Origin: Oscillospiraceae bacterium
Lineage (GTDB): Bacteria > Bacillota > Clostridia > Oscillospirales > CAG-382
NCBI GenBank assembly: GCA_015063885.1
Contig: SVTH01000006.1
Location: 62,001 to 126,000, forward strand
Reading direction: 5' to 3'
DNA: 64,000 bases
This document shows positions 4,712-13,428 of the stretch, piece after piece. Numbering within the stretch: position 1 is the first letter of the stretch; the number at the start of each line of letters is the position of its first letter. Position numbers and translations under genes: made by a program. A model generated the notes under the pieces. The model saw only the letters and a program-made list of their open reading frames with translations, was not told where the DNA came from and made no database searches.

Positions 4712-5776
4712 TTAGCAGATATGGGGGTTCATTTCGTGGCACTTGCGGATGAGATCCAACTGCTGGCGCACCTGGAACAGCTTGATATCGTGCTCTCTGC
4801 CTTCGGACAGCAGGGCGTAGATCTGATCGTAGTAGGTCTGCACCGCCGCAATGAAGGGTGCCTGGGGGTCGCCGTCCCAGCTTTCCTCGTACCAGGTGAG
4901 CTTCTCGCCGCAGTATGCGGGCATCTGCTCCTCGTCCACGTAGAGGGGAGTGCGGATCAACTTCTGTTCGGGTGCTTCCTCGGGCTTGAAGTACTTCCAG
5001 TCAATGTGGGCCATGTTGCCCTTCAGGGTGCCGTTGGTACCCTCTACCTTGTAGGTGTAAAGGGGGTAAGCGTCGCAGGAGGAGATGTCCAGGTCGATGA
5101 CGGGCTTGCCGGGAGCGGTAACGATGAGCTTTACGTAGTCCTCGGCGTTGCCGAAGGTGTTACAGCGGTCCATCTTGCAGAAGATCTCCAGCTCCTTGTC
5201 GTAAGCGTCCAGGATGTTCAGCGCCTGGTCAACGGGGTGAGGGCCGGTGTTGGCAAGGTTGCCGCCGTTGAAATCCAGACAGCACTGCCAGTCCCAGCGG
5301 CGGGCAAAGCCGTTGAACTGAATGCCCACGTGGACGATCCTGCCCAGCACGCCGGAGGCGATGACCTCCTTCACCTTCAGGAAGTAGTTGGCGAAACGGC
5401 TCTGCTGGAACACCAGGAAGTGGCATCCGTTCTGCTTTGCGGTTTCGCAAAGATCGTCAAACTCCTCCACGGTGGGAACGCAGGGCTTCTCGCACAGCAC
5501 GTTCAGCCCGTGGGAAAGCAGATCCTTGGAGATGGCATAATGCAAATGGCTGGGAGAGGAATTGACCACCAGGTCGATATCCTTTCTCTCGAACAGCTTG
5601 GTATAATCGTCGTAAACGTCGCAGCCGTATTCCAGTGCGGCGCGGTTCATACGCTTTTCCAGCTTCTCAACGACGGCAACGACGCGGAAACGCTCCGTGT
5701 CCTTCTTCAGGTGCAGACCGTGGATATCTCTGCCGCTTCTGCCCTGGCCGATGATGGCAATGTTGAACTGTTTCAT
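4712..5776 (-). CDS. Gfo/Idh/MocA family NAD(P)-dependent oxidoreductase
   Basis: A 354-residue soluble enzyme with an N-terminal Rossmann fold: IAIIGQGRSGRDIH at residues 5-18 is the dinucleotide-binding loop. The family lysine motif is CEKPCVPTVEEF (near 95), and GGNLANTGPHPVDQAL (near 170) matches the family's GGxxxDxGxHxxD active-site segment. Members oxidise or reduce sugars, inositols or aminosugar derivatives; the exact substrate is not readable from sequence. The AAAGGAGA ribosome site lies 9 bases before the ATG. A promoter with a 17-bp spacer overlaps the end of the upstream GH20 gene. The position directly after a secreted hexosaminidase suggests a role in catabolism of the released sugar, which is inference. 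Confidence 0.93.
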   Translation of the reverse strand: MKQFNIAIIGQGRSGRDIHGLHLKKDTERFRVVAVVEKLEKRMNRAALEYGCDVYDDYTKLFERKDIDLVVNSSPSHLHYAISKDLLSHGLNVLCEKPCVPTVEEFDDLCETAKQNGCHFLVFQQSRFANYFLKVKEVIASGVLGRIVHVGIQFNGFARRWDWQCCLDFNGGNLANTGPHPVDQALNILDAYDKELEIFCKMDRCNTFGNAEDYVKLIVTAPGKPVIDLDISSCDAYPLYTYKVEGTNGTLKGNMAHIDWKYFKPEEAPEQKLIRTPLYVDEEQMPAYCGEKLTWYEESWDGDPQAPFIAAVQTYYDQIYALLSEGREHDIKLFQVRQQLDLIRKCHEMNPHIC

Positions 5777-5809: not shown

Positions 5810-5838
5810 ATATTATCAAATATGCGTGGATTTTTCAA
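5810..5838 (-). promoter_or_regulatory. Sigma-A-type promoter for the Gfo/Idh gene
   Basis: On the minus strand TTGAAA (5833-5838), a 17-bp spacer and TAATAT (5810-5815). The -35 box overlaps the stop codon of the GH20 gene. Confidence 0.55.
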
Positions 5839-8624
5839 GACTTTTCGGAAATTTTTCCCGATTTTTTCTTACCCAAGAGGATCACCAAGGCGGCAACCGC
5901 TCCCAAGGCAAGGATCCCTCCCGCTACCCAGCCCCAGGGGAAGCTCTTTTCCCCGGGTACGGGATCGGGTGCAGGTGCAGGTGCGGAGGTCTCGGGCAGG
6001 CTTTCTTCGGCGGAAACGTCCTCGGAGGTCTCGCCCTCCTCGGGGAGCTCTGCGTTGATGGCTTCCGTCACCGCCTCGCCCAGCAGGTCTGCGTTGGGGA
6101 TATACACCGTCTTGCCGGAGGTGACGTAGGCCTTCAAGGCGTTGACCGCGTCGCGGATGGCTTTTCTGCGGGGGTCGTTGCCGGGCAGCTCGGTGAGCAT
6201 TTGATAGGCCTCGTCGATCAATGCCTCGTAGGCGGAAAGATCCTGGGAATACACACGGAATTCACGGATGCCGCCGCTGTAATAGGTGTTCCACTCGGCG
6301 TGGTACCAGCGCTTGTGCTGACGGTAGCGGATATACCGCCCGGAGACGTTCTCCAATTGGATCACGTCGGTCTCCTGCTTCCGTTCTTCTCCTCCCGTGA
6401 GTGTGTAAACGGTGGTGAAATTCTCGCCGTCCTCGGAGACCTGGAGATCGTATTCTCCCACACGCTCGTTGTAGCAGATCTCCACACGGGAGATGCGGCA
6501 CACGGAGCCCAGGTCCACCAACAGCCATTGCTCGTCCTCCTTTGCGGAGAAGGAAAGGCGGGTGGATTCGTCCCCGTCCACCGCCAGGTCGGCGGTGAAG
6601 CGTCCGTCCTCCACCTCCAGCTTGGAGACGGAGACGGGGGCGTTCAAGGCCAGGTTCCGCCCTGCCACCAGGTGTGCAACGCTCTCGTAAACGGGGGTGA
6701 CCCGCAGGCTGTACAGCTTGCCCGTTACCCCCTTGCCGATGGTCTCCAGGGGGATGGTGAGGGTGGAAAGCTTGGTATCGTTTGCGTTGAGGGCGTTGTA
6801 AGGCTCAAAGCAAAGCCCGTCGTTCACCGTGAGCACGGTGGTCACCCCATCACAGGAAAGGCGCAGCTTCACCTTCTCCCCAACAGGCAGGGTGTAATCG
6901 TAGGTGAAGGTGTACACCTCGTTTTTGAAGCCGAAGTGTCCCTTGCCGTCGGCGTCCGCCAGGATCTCCACCCCGTCCCCTGCAAACAAGGGAGAGGCGG
7001 GGATCTCATCCAGGGAGATCTCAAACTCCAAGGTGTTGGGGAAGCCCAGGGCGGGGATCTCCGCGGAAAGACTGCTTTCCCCGTCCAGGACAAAGCCGTT
7101 TTCGTAGGTCAGGTCGATGCCTTCCTCAGGATAGGTGTGTCTGCCCGGGTCCGCATCCCCTGCCAGCAGGGACAGGGTCTCGTACCGCTTCATAAAATCC
7201 TCGGCAGGGATGTTCTTGGTCTCCACACCCAGCCAGGTCTTTTCCGCCACCATGCAGACCATACCCCGCAGGCGGTCGAAGATGTCGTAGCGGGTGACCC
7301 CCTTGTAGGCGGTGTGCAGGTCGTTCCAAAGGGCAAAGCAGGCGCCCTTCAATTGGGGATCGTTGGGATCCACCTTGGCGTCATTGAAATAATTGAACAC
7401 GTTCACCTGCCAGGTGTTATACATATAGGGCAGGTCAAAGTAGTCCGGGAAGCTGTAGTTGGTGGTAGGCACCGTATACAGGATGGAGTTGACGGTGTTG
7501 ATCACGTCGTAATTGCTGGCCATGGTTTCGGAAGGACCCGAAATGCCCCAATCCCAGAAGTTCACCTGGCCGATCTGCGCCACCGGAGTCTCCCCGGGGA
7601 AGCCGTTGGGCCCCATGCTGCCCCAATGGCGGGGGACGTAGCCCAAGGAATCCACGTACTTGATGAGAGCATCGGTATACTTACGCATATCCTCTGCGTG
7701 CTCTCTGGGGTATTCGTCGGTGCCGATGTGCACCACCTTTCCCACGAAAACGGGGTCGTCTCCCGTCATATATTCCGCAAGCAGGTTCTTCACGAACTCC
7801 AAGGTCTCGGGCTTGGAGATATCCAGGCATCTGTCGTTCCCCGGCAGATGGGGAGGCGGGTTGTCCGCATTCTGATAGCAACGGGAATGGAAGGGGGTAT
7901 CGATCTCCGTCACCACCGACATGCCGTATTCCAGCATCCGCTTCTGATAGGCGCGGTAGTCCTCCTTGGAATAATAGCCGTCCTTGGCGGTGAGCCCCTT
8001 CACGTCGCTTTCCAGGCGGAAGGCGGAGTAGCCGTTACTGCCCTCGTCGTTGATGTGGAGATGGATCTCGTTCATTTTGAACCACACCATGTAGCGGGAG
8101 ATCTCCTCCACGTATTCCAAGGGGATCCAGGCTCTGCCCACGTCGAGCATTCCCGAACGGATGGGATAGGAGGGGTAATCCACCGCCTGTCCCACGGGGA
8201 AGAAGCCGTCGGCATACAAGCTCTGGCAAACGGTGATACCGCCGTAGAGCAATCCCACGTCCGTGGGCGCCTTGATGACAATTTTGGTTTCCGCAGCGTC
8301 CAGAGTGTACCCCTCCTCGCCTACGGTATCAAGCAGGGACTCGTCCTTTTCAAAGATCACGCCGCTGTCCCCTGCGGTGACGATCTCCAATTCCAAGGAA
8401 AGCATCTCGCAGAAATACCCCTGCACCTTCTCCACCGCGGGAGAGGAAGACAGATCCACCAAAACCGTGTTGCCGTCTGCTAAAAACTTACCGCTTCCTC
8501 CCTGCCATTCACGGATGGCGGGCAGAACGGTGGGAGCGGGGTTCGCCTCCGCCCCGGAAGCGGGAACGGCACATACCGTCCCCAGCATCAAGCCGGACAA
8601 AAGACCGGCGAGCAATCGTTTCAT
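5835..8624 (-). CDS. Secreted, membrane-anchored GH20 beta-N-acetylhexosaminidase with a discoidin domain
   Basis: 929 residues. A signal peptide (1-25) is followed by an N-terminal GH20b-type domain (about 30-150) and a GH20 TIM barrel (about 160-480). The catalytic pair is in HIGTDEY, with Asp303 and Glu304, the neighbouring Asp/Glu that use the substrate N-acetyl group as nucleophile. A concanavalin-like region follows (about 510-640), then an F5/8 type C domain (about 645-780, DLGSVCRISRVEI), a helical segment, a Pro/Ala/Glu linker and a C-terminal TM helix (about 890-912) with a Lys-rich tail. It should act outside the cell on GlcNAc/GalNAc-terminated glycans while anchored to the membrane. 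The second ATG (8624) is preferred: AGGAGG is 8 bases before it and only 2 before the first (8630). It follows the dockerin/MORN gene by 15 bases. Confidence 0.92.
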   Translation of the reverse strand: MKRLLAGLLSGLMLGTVCAVPASGAEANPAPTVLPAIREWQGGSGKFLADGNTVLVDLSSSPAVEKVQGYFCEMLSLELEIVTAGDSGVIFEKDESLLDTVGEEGYTLDAAETKIVIKAPTDVGLLYGGITVCQSLYADGFFPVGQAVDYPSYPIRSGMLDVGRAWIPLEYVEEISRYMVWFKMNEIHLHINDEGSNGYSAFRLESDVKGLTAKDGYYSKEDYRAYQKRMLEYGMSVVTEIDTPFHSRCYQNADNPPPHLPGNDRCLDISKPETLEFVKNLLAEYMTGDDPVFVGKVVHIGTDEYPREHAEDMRKYTDALIKYVDSLGYVPRHWGSMGPNGFPGETPVAQIGQVNFWDWGISGPSETMASNYDVINTVNSILYTVPTTNYSFPDYFDLPYMYNTWQVNVFNYFNDAKVDPNDPQLKGACFALWNDLHTAYKGVTRYDIFDRLRGMVCMVAEKTWLGVETKNIPAEDFMKRYETLSLLAGDADPGRHTYPEEGIDLTYENGFVLDGESSLSAEIPALGFPNTLEFEISLDEIPASPLFAGDGVEILADADGKGHFGFKNEVYTFTYDYTLPVGEKVKLRLSCDGVTTVLTVNDGLCFEPYNALNANDTKLSTLTIPLETIGKGVTGKLYSLRVTPVYESVAHLVAGRNLALNAPVSVSKLEVEDGRFTADLAVDGDESTRLSFSAKEDEQWLLVDLGSVCRISRVEICYNERVGEYDLQVSEDGENFTTVYTLTGGEERKQETDVIQLENVSGRYIRYRQHKRWYHAEWNTYYSGGIREFRVYSQDLSAYEALIDEAYQMLTELPGNDPRRKAIRDAVNALKAYVTSGKTVYIPNADLLGEAVTEAINAELPEEGETSEDVSAEESLPETSAPAPAPDPVPGEKSFPWGWVAGGILALGAVAALVILLGKKKSGKISEKS

Positions 8625-8639
8625 AAACATATCCTCCTA

Positions 8640-9986
8640 TCATGCACCTTGATAAACGCCATAGCTCCAGACCCCGCTTCTCTCGGCGCCGGAAGCATAA
8701 ACGTATCTTCCTTGTCCATGAAGCTTCCCTTCCAGGAAGCCTCCCTCATATACGTCCCCGTTGTGCCAACGGTATACGCCCTGTCCGGTGCGGGCTCCCC
8801 GCAGGAAGGCGCCCTCGTAAACGTCTCCGTTGGTCCAGGTCATCACGCCCTGTCCGTGGAAGGTGCCGTTTTCAAAGCTTCCGCGGTAAACGGTGCCTGC
8901 GGCAAAGAAGTATTCTCCCTCCCCCGCAGGGACGCCGTATTCCAGGTAGCCTACGTATTTGTCGCCGTTGGCGTAAACCTTGGTACCAAAGCCTGTAAAC
9001 TGCTCCTCCTGCATGGCCCGATCGAAATCCTCTCGGGTCAGATGGGCGGTATCCCGCAAAAACGCCTTGGCTTGATCCGTCAGCGTGTCCCGCCAGCCCA
9101 CGGTGTAGGCAGTAAGCTCGTCCACCCGCTTTCCCGTTGCCATAATGCTGTCGGGGAAATAGGCTGCCGCCGCAGCGGAGACCTCCGCCGGGAAATACAG
9201 ATCCTTCGCCCCGTACAAATGGAGCAGCTCGTGGCAGAAGGGAGAAAGATCCGAGCTGTACAACGTCAGGAACTCCGCTCCTTCTGCGGAATGGTGGGAA
9301 TACGCCGCCGCCCTTCCCGCCTTGTTCACCACGAACACCACGGGTGCGGAGGCCACCGCCCAATCCCGCTCCAACGCCAATTGCATCTGATGCAGAGATC
9401 CAAACCCCATGGCGGCGGCAACGGGTGCCGTCCAGGTGTCTGCAGTAAACGCCTCCACCTCTGCGTCCACGGTAAGATCCCATTCCCCGTAGTACAGCGT
9501 CAGGTCCACGGCGTTCTCCCGTGCCAAGCCGTTCATACGGAGCATCTCCTCCCGAAGCCGTGCCTCGGCCTTCTCCCGTGCGGAAGCGTCCCAGGTGCTT
9601 TCGCTGTCGCTGACAAACACCAAAAATACGCACACCTTCCCCTGCAGGCGCTCGCAGTTGCCTCCGTCCTTATCCTGCAAGAGGAGATGGTTCTCCACGT
9701 GGATATCGTACCGCCCCATCACGTGGAGCTTCAACAGGGCGTAATCCACCGCGTCGATCCTGCCGTCGCCGTTGATGTCCGCCATCTCCATTCCCTGCGG
9801 AGAGAGCTGATACGTCTGCATCACGTGCCGCTTCAGCATGGCGTAATCCAACGTATTCAGCCTTCCGTCACCGTTAAGGTCCCCCAAAAAGGCTCCCGAC
9901 GCCGCGGCGCGGAAGGGAAGCGCCCCCGCAATAAGGACTGTCAGAAGGATCGCAGTCACAACCCCTCGAAATGCCCTTCGCTTCAT
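8640..9986 (-). CDS. Secreted dockerin protein with metzincin-like zinc motif and MORN repeats
   Basis: 448 residues with a signal peptide (about 1-29). Two dockerin type I repeats follow (about 32-90): GDLNGDGRLNTLDY and ADINGDGRIDAVDY, each with calcium ligands and a following LKRHVM/LKLHVM helix. A central domain (about 95-335) contains HELLHLYGAKD: His252, Glu253, His256, Gly259 and Asp262 fit the HExxHxxGxxD metzincin zinc motif, and SIM with Met282 is a candidate Met-turn. The C-terminus (about 345-445) has five MORN units of 22-23 residues, e.g. NGDVYEGAFLRG and NGDVYEGGFLEGK. This suggests an extracellular metalloprotease docked to a cohesin partner. The ATG at 9986 is chosen because AAAGGCGGG precedes it; an in-frame ATG at 10019 overlaps the promoter -10 box. 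It starts an operon with the GH20 gene. Confidence 0.85.
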   Translation of the reverse strand: MKRRAFRGVVTAILLTVLIAGALPFRAAASGAFLGDLNGDGRLNTLDYAMLKRHVMQTYQLSPQGMEMADINGDGRIDAVDYALLKLHVMGRYDIHVENHLLLQDKDGGNCERLQGKVCVFLVFVSDSESTWDASAREKAEARLREEMLRMNGLARENAVDLTLYYGEWDLTVDAEVEAFTADTWTAPVAAAMGFGSLHQMQLALERDWAVASAPVVFVVNKAGRAAAYSHHSAEGAEFLTLYSSDLSPFCHELLHLYGAKDLYFPAEVSAAAAAYFPDSIMATGKRVDELTAYTVGWRDTLTDQAKAFLRDTAHLTREDFDRAMQEEQFTGFGTKVYANGDKYVGYLEYGVPAGEGEYFFAAGTVYRGSFENGTFHGQGVMTWTNGDVYEGAFLRGARTGQGVYRWHNGDVYEGGFLEGKLHGQGRYVYASGAERSGVWSYGVYQGA

Positions 9987-10017: not shown

Positions 10018-10046
10018 ATTATACCACACCTTTTTCGCTATTGCAA
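10018..10046 (-). promoter_or_regulatory. Sigma-A-type promoter for the dockerin/MORN-GH20 operon
   Basis: Minus strand TTGCAA (10041-10046), a 17-bp spacer and a perfect TATAAT (10018-10023). The adjacent G makes an ATG with the end of the -10 box, which rules that ATG out as the start codon. Confidence 0.85.
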
Positions 10047-10095: not shown

Positions 10096-13000
10096 TCACA
10101 GCTTCATCACTTGGCGCTTCAGCATGCTGTAGTCCAGGACGTTGATCCTGCCGTCGCCGTTGATATCCGCCCGCATAAGCTGCTCGGGGGATAAGTCGGC
10201 CAGCTTCATGACGTAGCGCTTCAGAATGCCGTAGTCCAGGACGTTGATCCTGCCGTCCATGTTCAGATCTCCCATAAGCACAGGCTCGGAGGAAGGCTCC
10301 TCGCTGTTCCACAGCAGACTTCCATCGGTGCCCCAGGACCAGCTTTCGTTCCAGGTGATGGGGGCGCAGATACGCTCCATACGGATCTCCTCCAAGGCGT
10401 TGCAGTCCCGGAAGATCCCCTCCCCCACAAAAAGCAGGGAATCGGGCAGATAGACGGTCTTCAGACTGCCGTTTCCTCCGAAGGCGCCCTCCGCCACGGC
10501 GGTGACGGGGATGCCGTCCACAGCCGCGGGAAGCACCAGGATCTTAGCGTTCCCTTGATAGCCCGTGATGCAGTAGGCTCCGTTTTGCAGCTCCAGCACC
10601 AAGCCCTCGGGACATCCGCAGGTACTGCAGACGCCGTTTTTATAGGTATGGCCTTTGGGGGCAACCGCCTCCTCCGAGGCCACGGCACCGCAAAGAGCAC
10701 AGCCGTAAACACGGCTCCCCGCGGACATACAGCCCCCTGCCGTCTCCCGCAGAAGCACCTGCTCCCCGTGGGCACAGGAAGCACTGCCGCGGATCACCTC
10801 TGCTTCACTGCCTGCGATCCAATGGATATGCCAGGAGTCGGGATCCTCGGCGGGAACCACGTACACCTGCTGTGCAGGGGTGTCGAACAGAAGGTATCTC
10901 CCCACGGATTCCACCGTGGCGGGGATCCGCAAGGAGGTCAGCCCCGTTCCGCGGAAGGCGTACGCCCCCAAAGAAAGGATACCTTCCGGCAAATAAAGGA
11001 AGGTCAGCCCCGACACGCCGTCAAAGGCGTAGGAAGCGATATGCTTGACGCTCCCGTCTGCGGGGATCACGGAGGAAACGCACCCCATCAGCAGGGTGCC
11101 GCTTTCCTTTTCCAGGATGCAATTTCCGTGGGAAGCGAAAACCCCATTCCCTTCCCGCACCCCAAGGCGGGTCAATCCCTTGCACCCGAAGAAGGCGCCG
11201 GGGGAAAGCTCTTTCAAGCTTGCGGGCAGTTCTATATAGGTCAAGCTGTCACAATGGGCAAAGGCGGCGTAGAGGATGGACTCCAGCCCCTCCGGCAGGT
11301 ACAAGCGCTCTGCGGACACACATTCCGCAAAGGCGCCCTCGCCGATAAGCTTCACCCCGGAAGGGAGAATAATCTCCCGCAGGGACGTACATTCCGCAAA
11401 GGCAAAGCTTCCGATCTCCTGCAAGGTCGCAGGGAAGGTAACGCTTTCTATCGCGGTCTTCTCAAAAGCGCCGTCGGCAATTCTGACCACGGCGCCGCCT
11501 TTGATGTAGGCGGGGATCACCACGTGGGTGCTGTCCCCCTTATATCCGATGATCTCCAAGCCGTTTTTATAGAGCATCACCGTAAAATCTTCTGCAGGAT
11601 CGGCCTTCGGGATGCCGCAATAGGCGCAGAGCCCATCCTCCCCGTAGGCGTGCCCTACGGCAAGGAGCTTGGTGTATTCCTTATCTTCTCCGCAGACAAT
11701 ACACCTCACGGAGACGTAGCCCTCCTTCCCGCAGGTGGGAGAAACGGTCTTCGTCTCATAGGTATGTCCCAAAGCGGGCAGAACCGTCTCCGTCACCGCC
11801 TTACCGCACAGGATGCAGGTTTCTCTCAAAAAGCCGGCTTCCGTGCAGGTGGGCTCCCCTCTTTGGGTGGTGAACCCGGGATGATCCTCCGTTTTGGGGT
11901 GCTCCGTATAAGCAAGCACCTCTCCGCACACCGTGCAGATCTCGCGGGTGTAGCCCGCCGCCGCACAGGTGGGCCGTACCGTCTCCGTTTGGGGACTGTG
12001 TCCCGTGGGGGAGAAGGATTCGGAGGAAACCGTTTTACCGCACACCGTGCAGACGTGCTTGATAAAGCCCTCCCCTGTACAGGTGGGAGGCGCAGTCTCG
12101 GTACGCAAAGCCCCGTGCTCCGAGGTCATAGGCAGTACGGTACGGGAAAGCTCCTTGCCACACACCCCGCAGTACGTGCGGGTATAGCCGTCCGCCGCAC
12201 AGGTGGGCTGTACCGTTTCCGTCTTTACCGTATGGCCTTTGGCGGGGTAGGTCACGGTGGTCATGGTCTTTCCACACACCGTGCAGATCTCTTTTTTGTA
12301 GCCCGGCTTCTCGCAGGTGGGAGCTAAAGCCTCGGTGCCCGTAGTGCCGTGGACGGTGGAAAGAGGCAAGGCCTTGCGGGAAAGCTCTTCCCCGCACACC
12401 GTGCAGAACACACGGGTATAGCCCGCCTTGGCGCAGGTGGAGGGGATGGTCTGAGTATGCTCCGTATGGCCGTATGCGTCTGACACCTCCAGGGAAAGCA
12501 CGCTTCCGCAAAGGTTGCACACCTCCCGACGGTATCCGTCCGTATCGCAGGTGGGATCCAGAGATTCGTTTCGGGTCTCCGCATGAGCACAGGTGTTGTC
12601 GTAGCTCCAGATGGGGGGAACCTCCACGCCCCCGTTCCATTTTTGATGCCAGCCCTCCGGCTTGGCCTCGCTGCCGCAATACAAGGCGGTCAAGGGAGCG
12701 TTATGGAAAACGTATTTCCCCACGGTCTTCAGGGAAGACGGCAGGAAAATCCCGGTGAGGGACGTCCCCTCAAAGGCGCCGTCCCCGATGGCGGTGACGC
12801 TTTGGGGGATCTCAATGGAAGTCAGACTTTTGATACAGGAAAAAGCGTAGGGCGCAATAGAGGTCACGCTTCCGTCGTCGGGGATCACAGAGGAACCGCA
12901 CCCCGCAACCAGGGCGCCGCTTCCGTCGATGATGCAATTTTCGGCAGAGCGATAGGCCTCGCATCCCTCCTCCACCGCCAAAAGGGTCAGCCCGTTACAC

Positions 13001-13428
13001 CCGGAGAACGCCTGGCTGCCCAGGCTTTGCAGGCTTGCGGGCAAAACCGCCTCGGTCAAAGCCGTACAATCCGCAAAGGCGGCTTCTCCCACGTGGAGCA
13101 GGCCGCTTCCGAAGGTCACCTTCTCAAGGGAAGCACACCCGAAGAAGGCGCCGTCCTCAATGCGCTCCAGGCAGGAGGGCAGGATCAGCTCCTTCACGGA
13201 AGCGCCCTCAAAGGCGAAAACGCCGATGGCCGAAACGGGAGCGTCCCCAAGGGTCTCGGGCACCGTCACCGTTTCTTCTGTTCCGTTGTATAGGGTGATG
13301 ACGGCTTTTCCCTCCAGGATCTCATAGGCGTAGGGCTCCTCCGCAGACACGACGGACGCCGGAACCGGACCCAAAAGCAAGCTGAAGACCAGCAGGAAAC
13401 TAAAAAACCGCAGGGGGAATCTTCTCAC
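10096..13428 (-). CDS. Secreted BspA-like leucine-rich repeat protein with Cys-pair repeats and C-terminal dockerin
   Basis: 1110 residues. A signal peptide (1-29, cleaved near VVSAEEP) is followed by a first block of LRR_5 (BspA/Treponema type) repeats (about 50-260), recognisable as 'AFxGCxSLxxVxxPxxLxxIGxxAF'. Residues about 280-600 hold eight units of a PTC..GY..xC..CG motif, two cysteine groups per unit. A second LRR_5 block (about 615-870), one more Cys unit and a short LRR_5 stretch follow. The last 58 residues are a dockerin type I with two calcium loops, GDLNMDGRINVLDY and ADINGDGRINVLDY. BspA-like proteins bind host matrix or other cells; the dockerin implies attachment to a cohesin-bearing scaffold, none of which is visible here. 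It has its own promoter and terminator. Confidence 0.9.
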   Translation of the reverse strand: MRRFPLRFFSFLLVFSLLLGPVPASVVSAEEPYAYEILEGKAVITLYNGTEETVTVPETLGDAPVSAIGVFAFEGASVKELILPSCLERIEDGAFFGCASLEKVTFGSGLLHVGEAAFADCTALTEAVLPASLQSLGSQAFSGCNGLTLLAVEEGCEAYRSAENCIIDGSGALVAGCGSSVIPDDGSVTSIAPYAFSCIKSLTSIEIPQSVTAIGDGAFEGTSLTGIFLPSSLKTVGKYVFHNAPLTALYCGSEAKPEGWHQKWNGGVEVPPIWSYDNTCAHAETRNESLDPTCDTDGYRREVCNLCGSVLSLEVSDAYGHTEHTQTIPSTCAKAGYTRVFCTVCGEELSRKALPLSTVHGTTGTEALAPTCEKPGYKKEICTVCGKTMTTVTYPAKGHTVKTETVQPTCAADGYTRTYCGVCGKELSRTVLPMTSEHGALRTETAPPTCTGEGFIKHVCTVCGKTVSSESFSPTGHSPQTETVRPTCAAAGYTREICTVCGEVLAYTEHPKTEDHPGFTTQRGEPTCTEAGFLRETCILCGKAVTETVLPALGHTYETKTVSPTCGKEGYVSVRCIVCGEDKEYTKLLAVGHAYGEDGLCAYCGIPKADPAEDFTVMLYKNGLEIIGYKGDSTHVVIPAYIKGGAVVRIADGAFEKTAIESVTFPATLQEIGSFAFAECTSLREIILPSGVKLIGEGAFAECVSAERLYLPEGLESILYAAFAHCDSLTYIELPASLKELSPGAFFGCKGLTRLGVREGNGVFASHGNCILEKESGTLLMGCVSSVIPADGSVKHIASYAFDGVSGLTFLYLPEGILSLGAYAFRGTGLTSLRIPATVESVGRYLLFDTPAQQVYVVPAEDPDSWHIHWIAGSEAEVIRGSASCAHGEQVLLRETAGGCMSAGSRVYGCALCGAVASEEAVAPKGHTYKNGVCSTCGCPEGLVLELQNGAYCITGYQGNAKILVLPAAVDGIPVTAVAEGAFGGNGSLKTVYLPDSLLFVGEGIFRDCNALEEIRMERICAPITWNESWSWGTDGSLLWNSEEPSSEPVLMGDLNMDGRINVLDYGILKRYVMKLADLSPEQLMRADINGDGRINVLDYSMLKRQVMKL

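Follow-up and report, generated by a model that had tools for sequence, protein, structure and literature searches.

A dockerin- and MORN-bearing protein of an Oscillospiraceae bacterium with a predicted zinc peptidase domain of an unnamed, M6-related metzincin family

Introduction

The metzincins are a clan of zinc peptidases whose usual role is extracellular. The definition of the clan includes the zinc motif HExxHxxG/NxxH/D; Asp is on record as the third zinc ligand in the snapalysins, the thuringilysins and IgAse, and in IgAse a tyrosine two residues beyond this Asp (Tyr552, i.e., at D+2) is the proposed tyrosine switch (PMC12237041). That dockerins occur on peptidases and on LRR proteins is already known: in Ruminococcus flavefaciens FD-1 they are found on 16 peptidases, one of which is called a metalloprotease, and on 28 LRR proteins (PMC2930009). 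MORN repeats in eukaryotes are commonly assumed to target membranes; structural work has described them as modules for protein–protein interaction and dimerisation, and no vesicle binding was found for TbMORN1 (PMC7725318). A literature search, with most subscription journals outside its coverage, found no paper in which MORN repeat, metalloprotease and dockerin are brought together.

Here, we describe a protein of a hindgut Clostridia bacterium in which all three occur. What is new is its peptidase domain, which has no match in Pfam or NCBIfam, and the triple architecture, which is absent from the literature searched.

Gene and domain organisation

The window (the whole stretch of DNA analysed, 64,000 nucleotides) carries the gene on its minus strand at 8640..9986, as do all features and neighbouring genes described below. 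The product is 448 amino acids long when translated from the ATG at 9986, and an alternative in-frame ATG at 10019 would give 459 amino acids. The plus strand over 8640-9986 is likewise open, as an antisense frame; the first-pass annotation named no strand.

The N-terminus, MKRRAFRGVVTAILLTVLIAGALPFRAAAS (residues ~1-30; 9897..9986), appears by inspection to be a signal peptide, with a basic start, a hydrophobic core and an end with small residues. It is followed by a type-I dockerin module (residues ~34-90; 9717..9887), which matches Pfam Dockerin_1 at residues 34-87 (E 5e-16, 59 bits vs a cut-off of 22.9), and whose part of the AlphaFold model aligns with known dockerins at VIA Z 12.6 and 12.2. 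The dockerin had been read as a pair; it is one module with two duplicated calcium-binding loops, DLNGDGRLNTLD and DINGDGRIDAVD. At the C-terminus is an array of MORN repeats (residues ~332-448; 8643..8993), matched by Pfam MORN (E 7e-17, 60.7 bits vs a cut-off of 22.5), modelled as a series of hairpins corresponding to the MORN units, and aligning with MORN proteins at a best VIA Z of 18.1. The array thus stands as first described, and its five units are four full ones of 23 residues plus a short fifth.

Between the dockerin and the MORN repeats lies a domain of about 235 residues (94-329; 9000..9707), supported by an alignment of 86 rows, by the AlphaFold model and by fold matches. Pfam scores the dockerin and MORN parts of the protein far over the cut-offs and finds nothing between them, and the sole NCBIfam match of the protein is to the dockerin part of a cellulosomal enzyme. 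Matches of single family members in these databases, such as those to TNT, KapB and IL8, were judged to be due to chance.

The peptidase domain

The middle domain contains the zinc motif HELLHLYGAKD (residues 252-262; 9201..9233). Translated in all six frames (127,996 residues), the window contains HExxHxxGxx[DH] only this once. Among the 86 aligned domains, the only invariant residues are His252, Glu253, His256, Gly259, Ala260 and Asp262 of this motif, Tyr264 (9195..9197), which stands at D+2 from the third ligand and is a candidate tyrosine switch, and Met282 of the Met-turn SIM (9141..9143). At the level of sequence, these eight residues make up the full metzincin signature. As identity within the alignment falls to 22% while the catalytic residues and the Met stay invariant, a chance origin of the motif is ruled out. 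The distance from the Asp to the Met is 20 in 56 of 85 copies. The first-pass annotation had assigned the zinc site and the Met-turn to exactly these positions (H252, E253, H256, G259, D262 and Met282), and had made their conservation in homologues a check on its reading; the conservation was found.

The way in which relatives were collected bears on these figures. One of the two patterns used in the scan of GTDB genomes was HE[LI][LF]H[LQ][YF]GA, and therefore the conservation of the motif in that scan is partly built in. The open reading frames from the whole-domain search were not chosen by motif, and 27 of 30 retain HExxHxxGxxD. In the other three (L017, L020 and L027), the losses of the His, Glu and Asp positions go together; the Met and the remainder of the domain are retained, and these members are likely to be pseudo-enzymes. 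A reading of the GxC common near the start of the domain as a cysteine switch was rejected, since Ser or Ala stands there in many members.

The AlphaFold model of the domain, built on the family alignment, is of high confidence (pLDDT 96.6, pTM 0.93) and has the fold common to metzincins, i.e., a β-sheet, a backing helix and an active-site helix; the zinc motif and the Met-turn that also characterise the clan are those of the alignment. In Foldseek, metzincins rank first, with modest scores (best E 8.5e-4, TM ~0.4-0.5). VIA-align gives Z scores of 9-11 over about 150-200 residues against many metzincins, where rows differing by less than one Z unit are to be taken as ties: 6o38 (which we take to be CpaA, a metzincin in a chaperone–substrate complex) is the best match at Z 11.1 over 158 residues with 13% identity, followed by snake-venom adamalysins (Z ~10), ulilysin (9.6), B. 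fragilis metalloproteinase II (9.5) and InhA2 (9.3). A search of PDB sequences with the family profile returned chance matches only.

At the level of profiles, the domain is linked to M6, the family of immune inhibitor A and thuringilysin. Against 14 M6 domains of the same order, hhalign reports a probability of 95.8% (E 8e-9), over the catalytic half only: the match spans HExxHxxGxxDxY, the Met and a downstream GW, and Asp is the third ligand in both. However, no accessory domains of the InhA type were seen in the window protein, which has no match to TIGR03296 (M6; curated cut-off 110.8 bits) and none to Pfam Reprolysin (Reprolysin_3, Reprolysin_4 and Reprolysin_5). Among the 86 members, 20 match TIGR03296, weakly (best E 1.2e-3), and 13 match Reprolysin_5 (best E 5e-6). 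As the window protein reaches no curated M6 or reprolysin score, the domain was not filed as M6.

Other described metzincins share some of these features. CpaA has a similar fold but a different architecture, and adamalysins (M12B reprolysins) are also alike in fold, whereas their third ligand is His rather than Asp. IgAse (an M64 igalysin) is, like the window protein, a multidomain metzincin from gut Firmicutes with an Asp ligand and a Tyr at D+2; however, its motif, HExxHxxxGxxD, is longer by one residue and its flanking domains are unrelated. The window domain is a separate, M6-related and so far unnamed metzincin family. Conservation, the high-confidence model, fold matches and the profile link to M6 together support the original prediction of a metzincin protease.

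Dockerins and cohesins in the genome

The genome carrying the window has 23 dockerin matches, which sit on LRR, GDPD, F5/8-type-C and SH3/Big_2 proteins, among others. It has two cohesin domains, on two adjacent proteins (L136:8769-12394, on contig C10 of this genome), both of which are secreted and have one cohesin and one dockerin each. These two single-cohesin proteins answer the question of whether cohesins are present in the same genome, and are candidate partners of its dockerins. A scaffoldin with several cohesins was not seen in this genome. A cohesin match is present in 21 of the 24 genomes of the genus; none was detected in two that carry the gene (G003 and G010, drafts of 90-91% completeness), from which divergent cohesins could have escaped detection. 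With both cohesins and dockerins encoded in the genome, the proposed docking on a cohesin is plausible, although the multi-cohesin scaffold is not borne out and G003 and G010 lack a detected cohesin. The situation resembles that of R. flavefaciens FD-1 in that both peptidases and LRR proteins bear dockerins. It differs in the lack of a visible multi-cohesin scaffoldin in the genome described here, and in the MORN repeats, which the account of FD-1 does not mention (PMC2930009).

Distribution and evolution of the family

In a whole-domain search of 197 relatives, the peptidase domain was found in 26 genomes. A scan of genome contigs with a single sequence gave no match, and the alignment-based scan of GTDB, which was partial, gave 178 confirmed candidates, from which 80 loci were kept. 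These are mainly from Clostridia of ruminant and other herbivore guts; outlying loci are labelled Prevotellaceae, Bacteroidetes, Chloroflexi, Planctomycetes, Kofleriaceae and Leptospiraceae, so that several phyla are represented. A distant relative with 24% identity is found on a contig classed as viral (L165, IMGVR_UViG_3300027806_000037). An origin as a phage family was considered and rejected, because the viral contigs yielded this one relative only.

By a simple pattern count, C-terminal MORN repeats are present in about 32 of 85 copies of the domain, including one (L073) that appears to have a Gly-rich tail rather than MORN. Counts of architecture categories are rough, because signal peptides were called by a rule based on hydrophobicity, which overlooked some clear ones. 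Besides the dockerin, the N-termini joined to the peptidase–MORN unit include SLH domains (L051), lipoprotein-type signals, and a zinc ribbon with a transmembrane (TM) segment. Peptidases without MORN are found fused to LRR_5 (L067) or to Sel1 repeats (L068). Two loci (L040:197-4600 and L051:7809-12652) have three peptidase genes in tandem each; those of L051 are two lipoprotein-like proteins and one with SLH domains. A separate group consists of standalone members in which a Met directly precedes the domain and no signal peptide is visible by inspection (for example L060, L071, L075, L053, L049, L046 and L057); these are candidate intracellular metzincins. Some members without a signal bear MORN repeats (L042, L061, L072, L077 and L080); L061 is from the cultured Anaerofustis stercorihominis.

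In the tree, the dockerin-bearing copies form one clade (support 1.00), all within this genus, and are sister (0.98) to proteins with the zinc-ribbon/TM, peptidase and MORN architecture. All copies in the dockerin clade retain every catalytic residue, and their domains are 57-62% identical to that of the window. The genome itself has a second copy of the domain (L004, C6:44939-45592), with a zinc ribbon, a TM segment, the peptidase and at least seven MORN repeats, which belongs to the sister group. The tree and the varied N-termini suggest that the peptidase–MORN unit is the older one and that the dockerin was probably acquired a single time, in this genus. The combination had been called unusual: this is true of the triple, which as far as seen is limited to one clade of the genus, but not of peptidase with MORN, which is common in the family. 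We put at about even odds the wider proposal that peptidase–MORN is a standing module re-anchored by swaps of its N-terminus (dockerin, SLH, lipoprotein, zinc ribbon/TM), within a large unnamed metzincin family of gut bacteria that includes a clade of signal-less, intracellular members.

Gene neighbourhood

The gene lies in a conserved cluster, between two other genes. Upstream (10096..13428) is that of a secreted BspA-type LRR_5 protein with a C-terminal dockerin, in which Cys-rich units of the form TCxxxGYxxxxCxxCG are repeated between the LRR blocks. Downstream (5835..8630) is that of a GH20 hexosaminidase with an F5/8-type-C domain and, by inspection, a C-terminal hydrophobic anchor. A Gfo/Idh/MocA oxidoreductase (4712..5776) is next in the cluster; the assignments of all three are from Pfam. 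The peptidase gene is separated from the LRR_5-dockerin gene by about 77 bp and from the GH20 gene by about 10 bp. The LRR_5-dockerin gene adjoins the peptidase gene in L033, L035 and L036 also, and the GH20 gene is its neighbour in L033, L034 and L036; the order is intact in L033 and L036, whereas L034 and L035 lie at contig ends and show part of it. Compared with their counterparts in the window, the oxidoreductases (in L033, L034 and L036) are 96-97% identical and the GH20 proteins 79-91%, against 57-62% for the peptidase domain and 49-61% for the LRR protein. Thus, the two dockerin proteins diverge fastest. In the wider family outside the genus there is no recurrent partner gene, only ABC-type or housekeeping genes or clusters of close relatives.

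Proposed function

With its active site conserved in almost all relatives, the window protein is probably an active protease that is retained close to the cell surface. The reading that we prefer, with a probability of roughly 0.6, is that of a secreted zinc metallopeptidase of the unnamed M6-related family, held by its dockerin on a cohesin, with the MORN repeats as spacer and interaction surface, which together with the LRR_5-dockerin protein and GH20 cleaves glycoproteins decorated with N-acetylhexosamine. His252, His256 and Asp262 would be the zinc ligands, with Met282 forming the Met-turn and Tyr264 a likely tyrosine switch, as both conservation and the predicted fold strongly suggest. 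From what is known of such families, Glu253 would be the general base in zinc hydrolysis. The dockerin may attach the enzyme to a cohesin at the cell surface or in a small secreted complex, and the MORN array may be a rigid β spacer with a surface for protein interaction or dimerisation, which would place or pair the enzyme, in line with the structural work on MORN repeats (PMC7725318). Cleavage of glycoproteins in the animal hindgut, alongside the LRR_5-dockerin protein and the surface-anchored GH20, is the most tentative step, suggested by the adjoining GH20 gene and by the gut habitat of the relatives.

The substrates could instead be the bacterium's own. A sheddase or maturation enzyme that trims the dockerin-bearing and LRR proteins of its own surface, rather than proteins of host or diet, would fit the co-encoded, large LRR_5-dockerin protein and the close paralogues L004 and L037, whose zinc ribbon and TM segment make them look membrane-anchored; and since some family members have no visible signal peptide, substrates need not be external. 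However, the adjoining GH20 hexosaminidase points to external glycans, and we consider such a self-directed role unlikely, though it is the best of the alternatives. Far less likely is that the MORN repeats tether the enzyme to lipids of the membrane or envelope, as the first-pass annotation proposed and as the common assumption about eukaryotic MORN repeats would have it: the results for TbMORN1 and the description of MORN as a protein-interaction module (PMC7725318) speak against it, and within the family the N-terminal part supplies the anchoring and varies while MORN stays, so that the proposal is unsupported. Equally improbable is a protein that retains the fold but does not cut, be it a pseudo-protease or a zinc-binding adhesin, for although the loss of the HExxH and Asp positions in L017, L020 and L027 means that inactive forms do arise, the dockerin-clade copies keep every catalytic residue despite their divergence from the window domain.

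Implications

Because the copy of the domain in the window falls outside all Pfam and NCBIfam models, annotation pipelines are likely to label enzymes of this family as hypothetical or as MORN proteins. If the preferred reading of an active peptidase holds, the herbivore gut Clostridia would have a sizeable set of unrecognised proteases, at the surface and possibly also inside the cell. The pairing of peptidase and MORN repeats offers a testable case for an extracellular role of MORN in bacteria.
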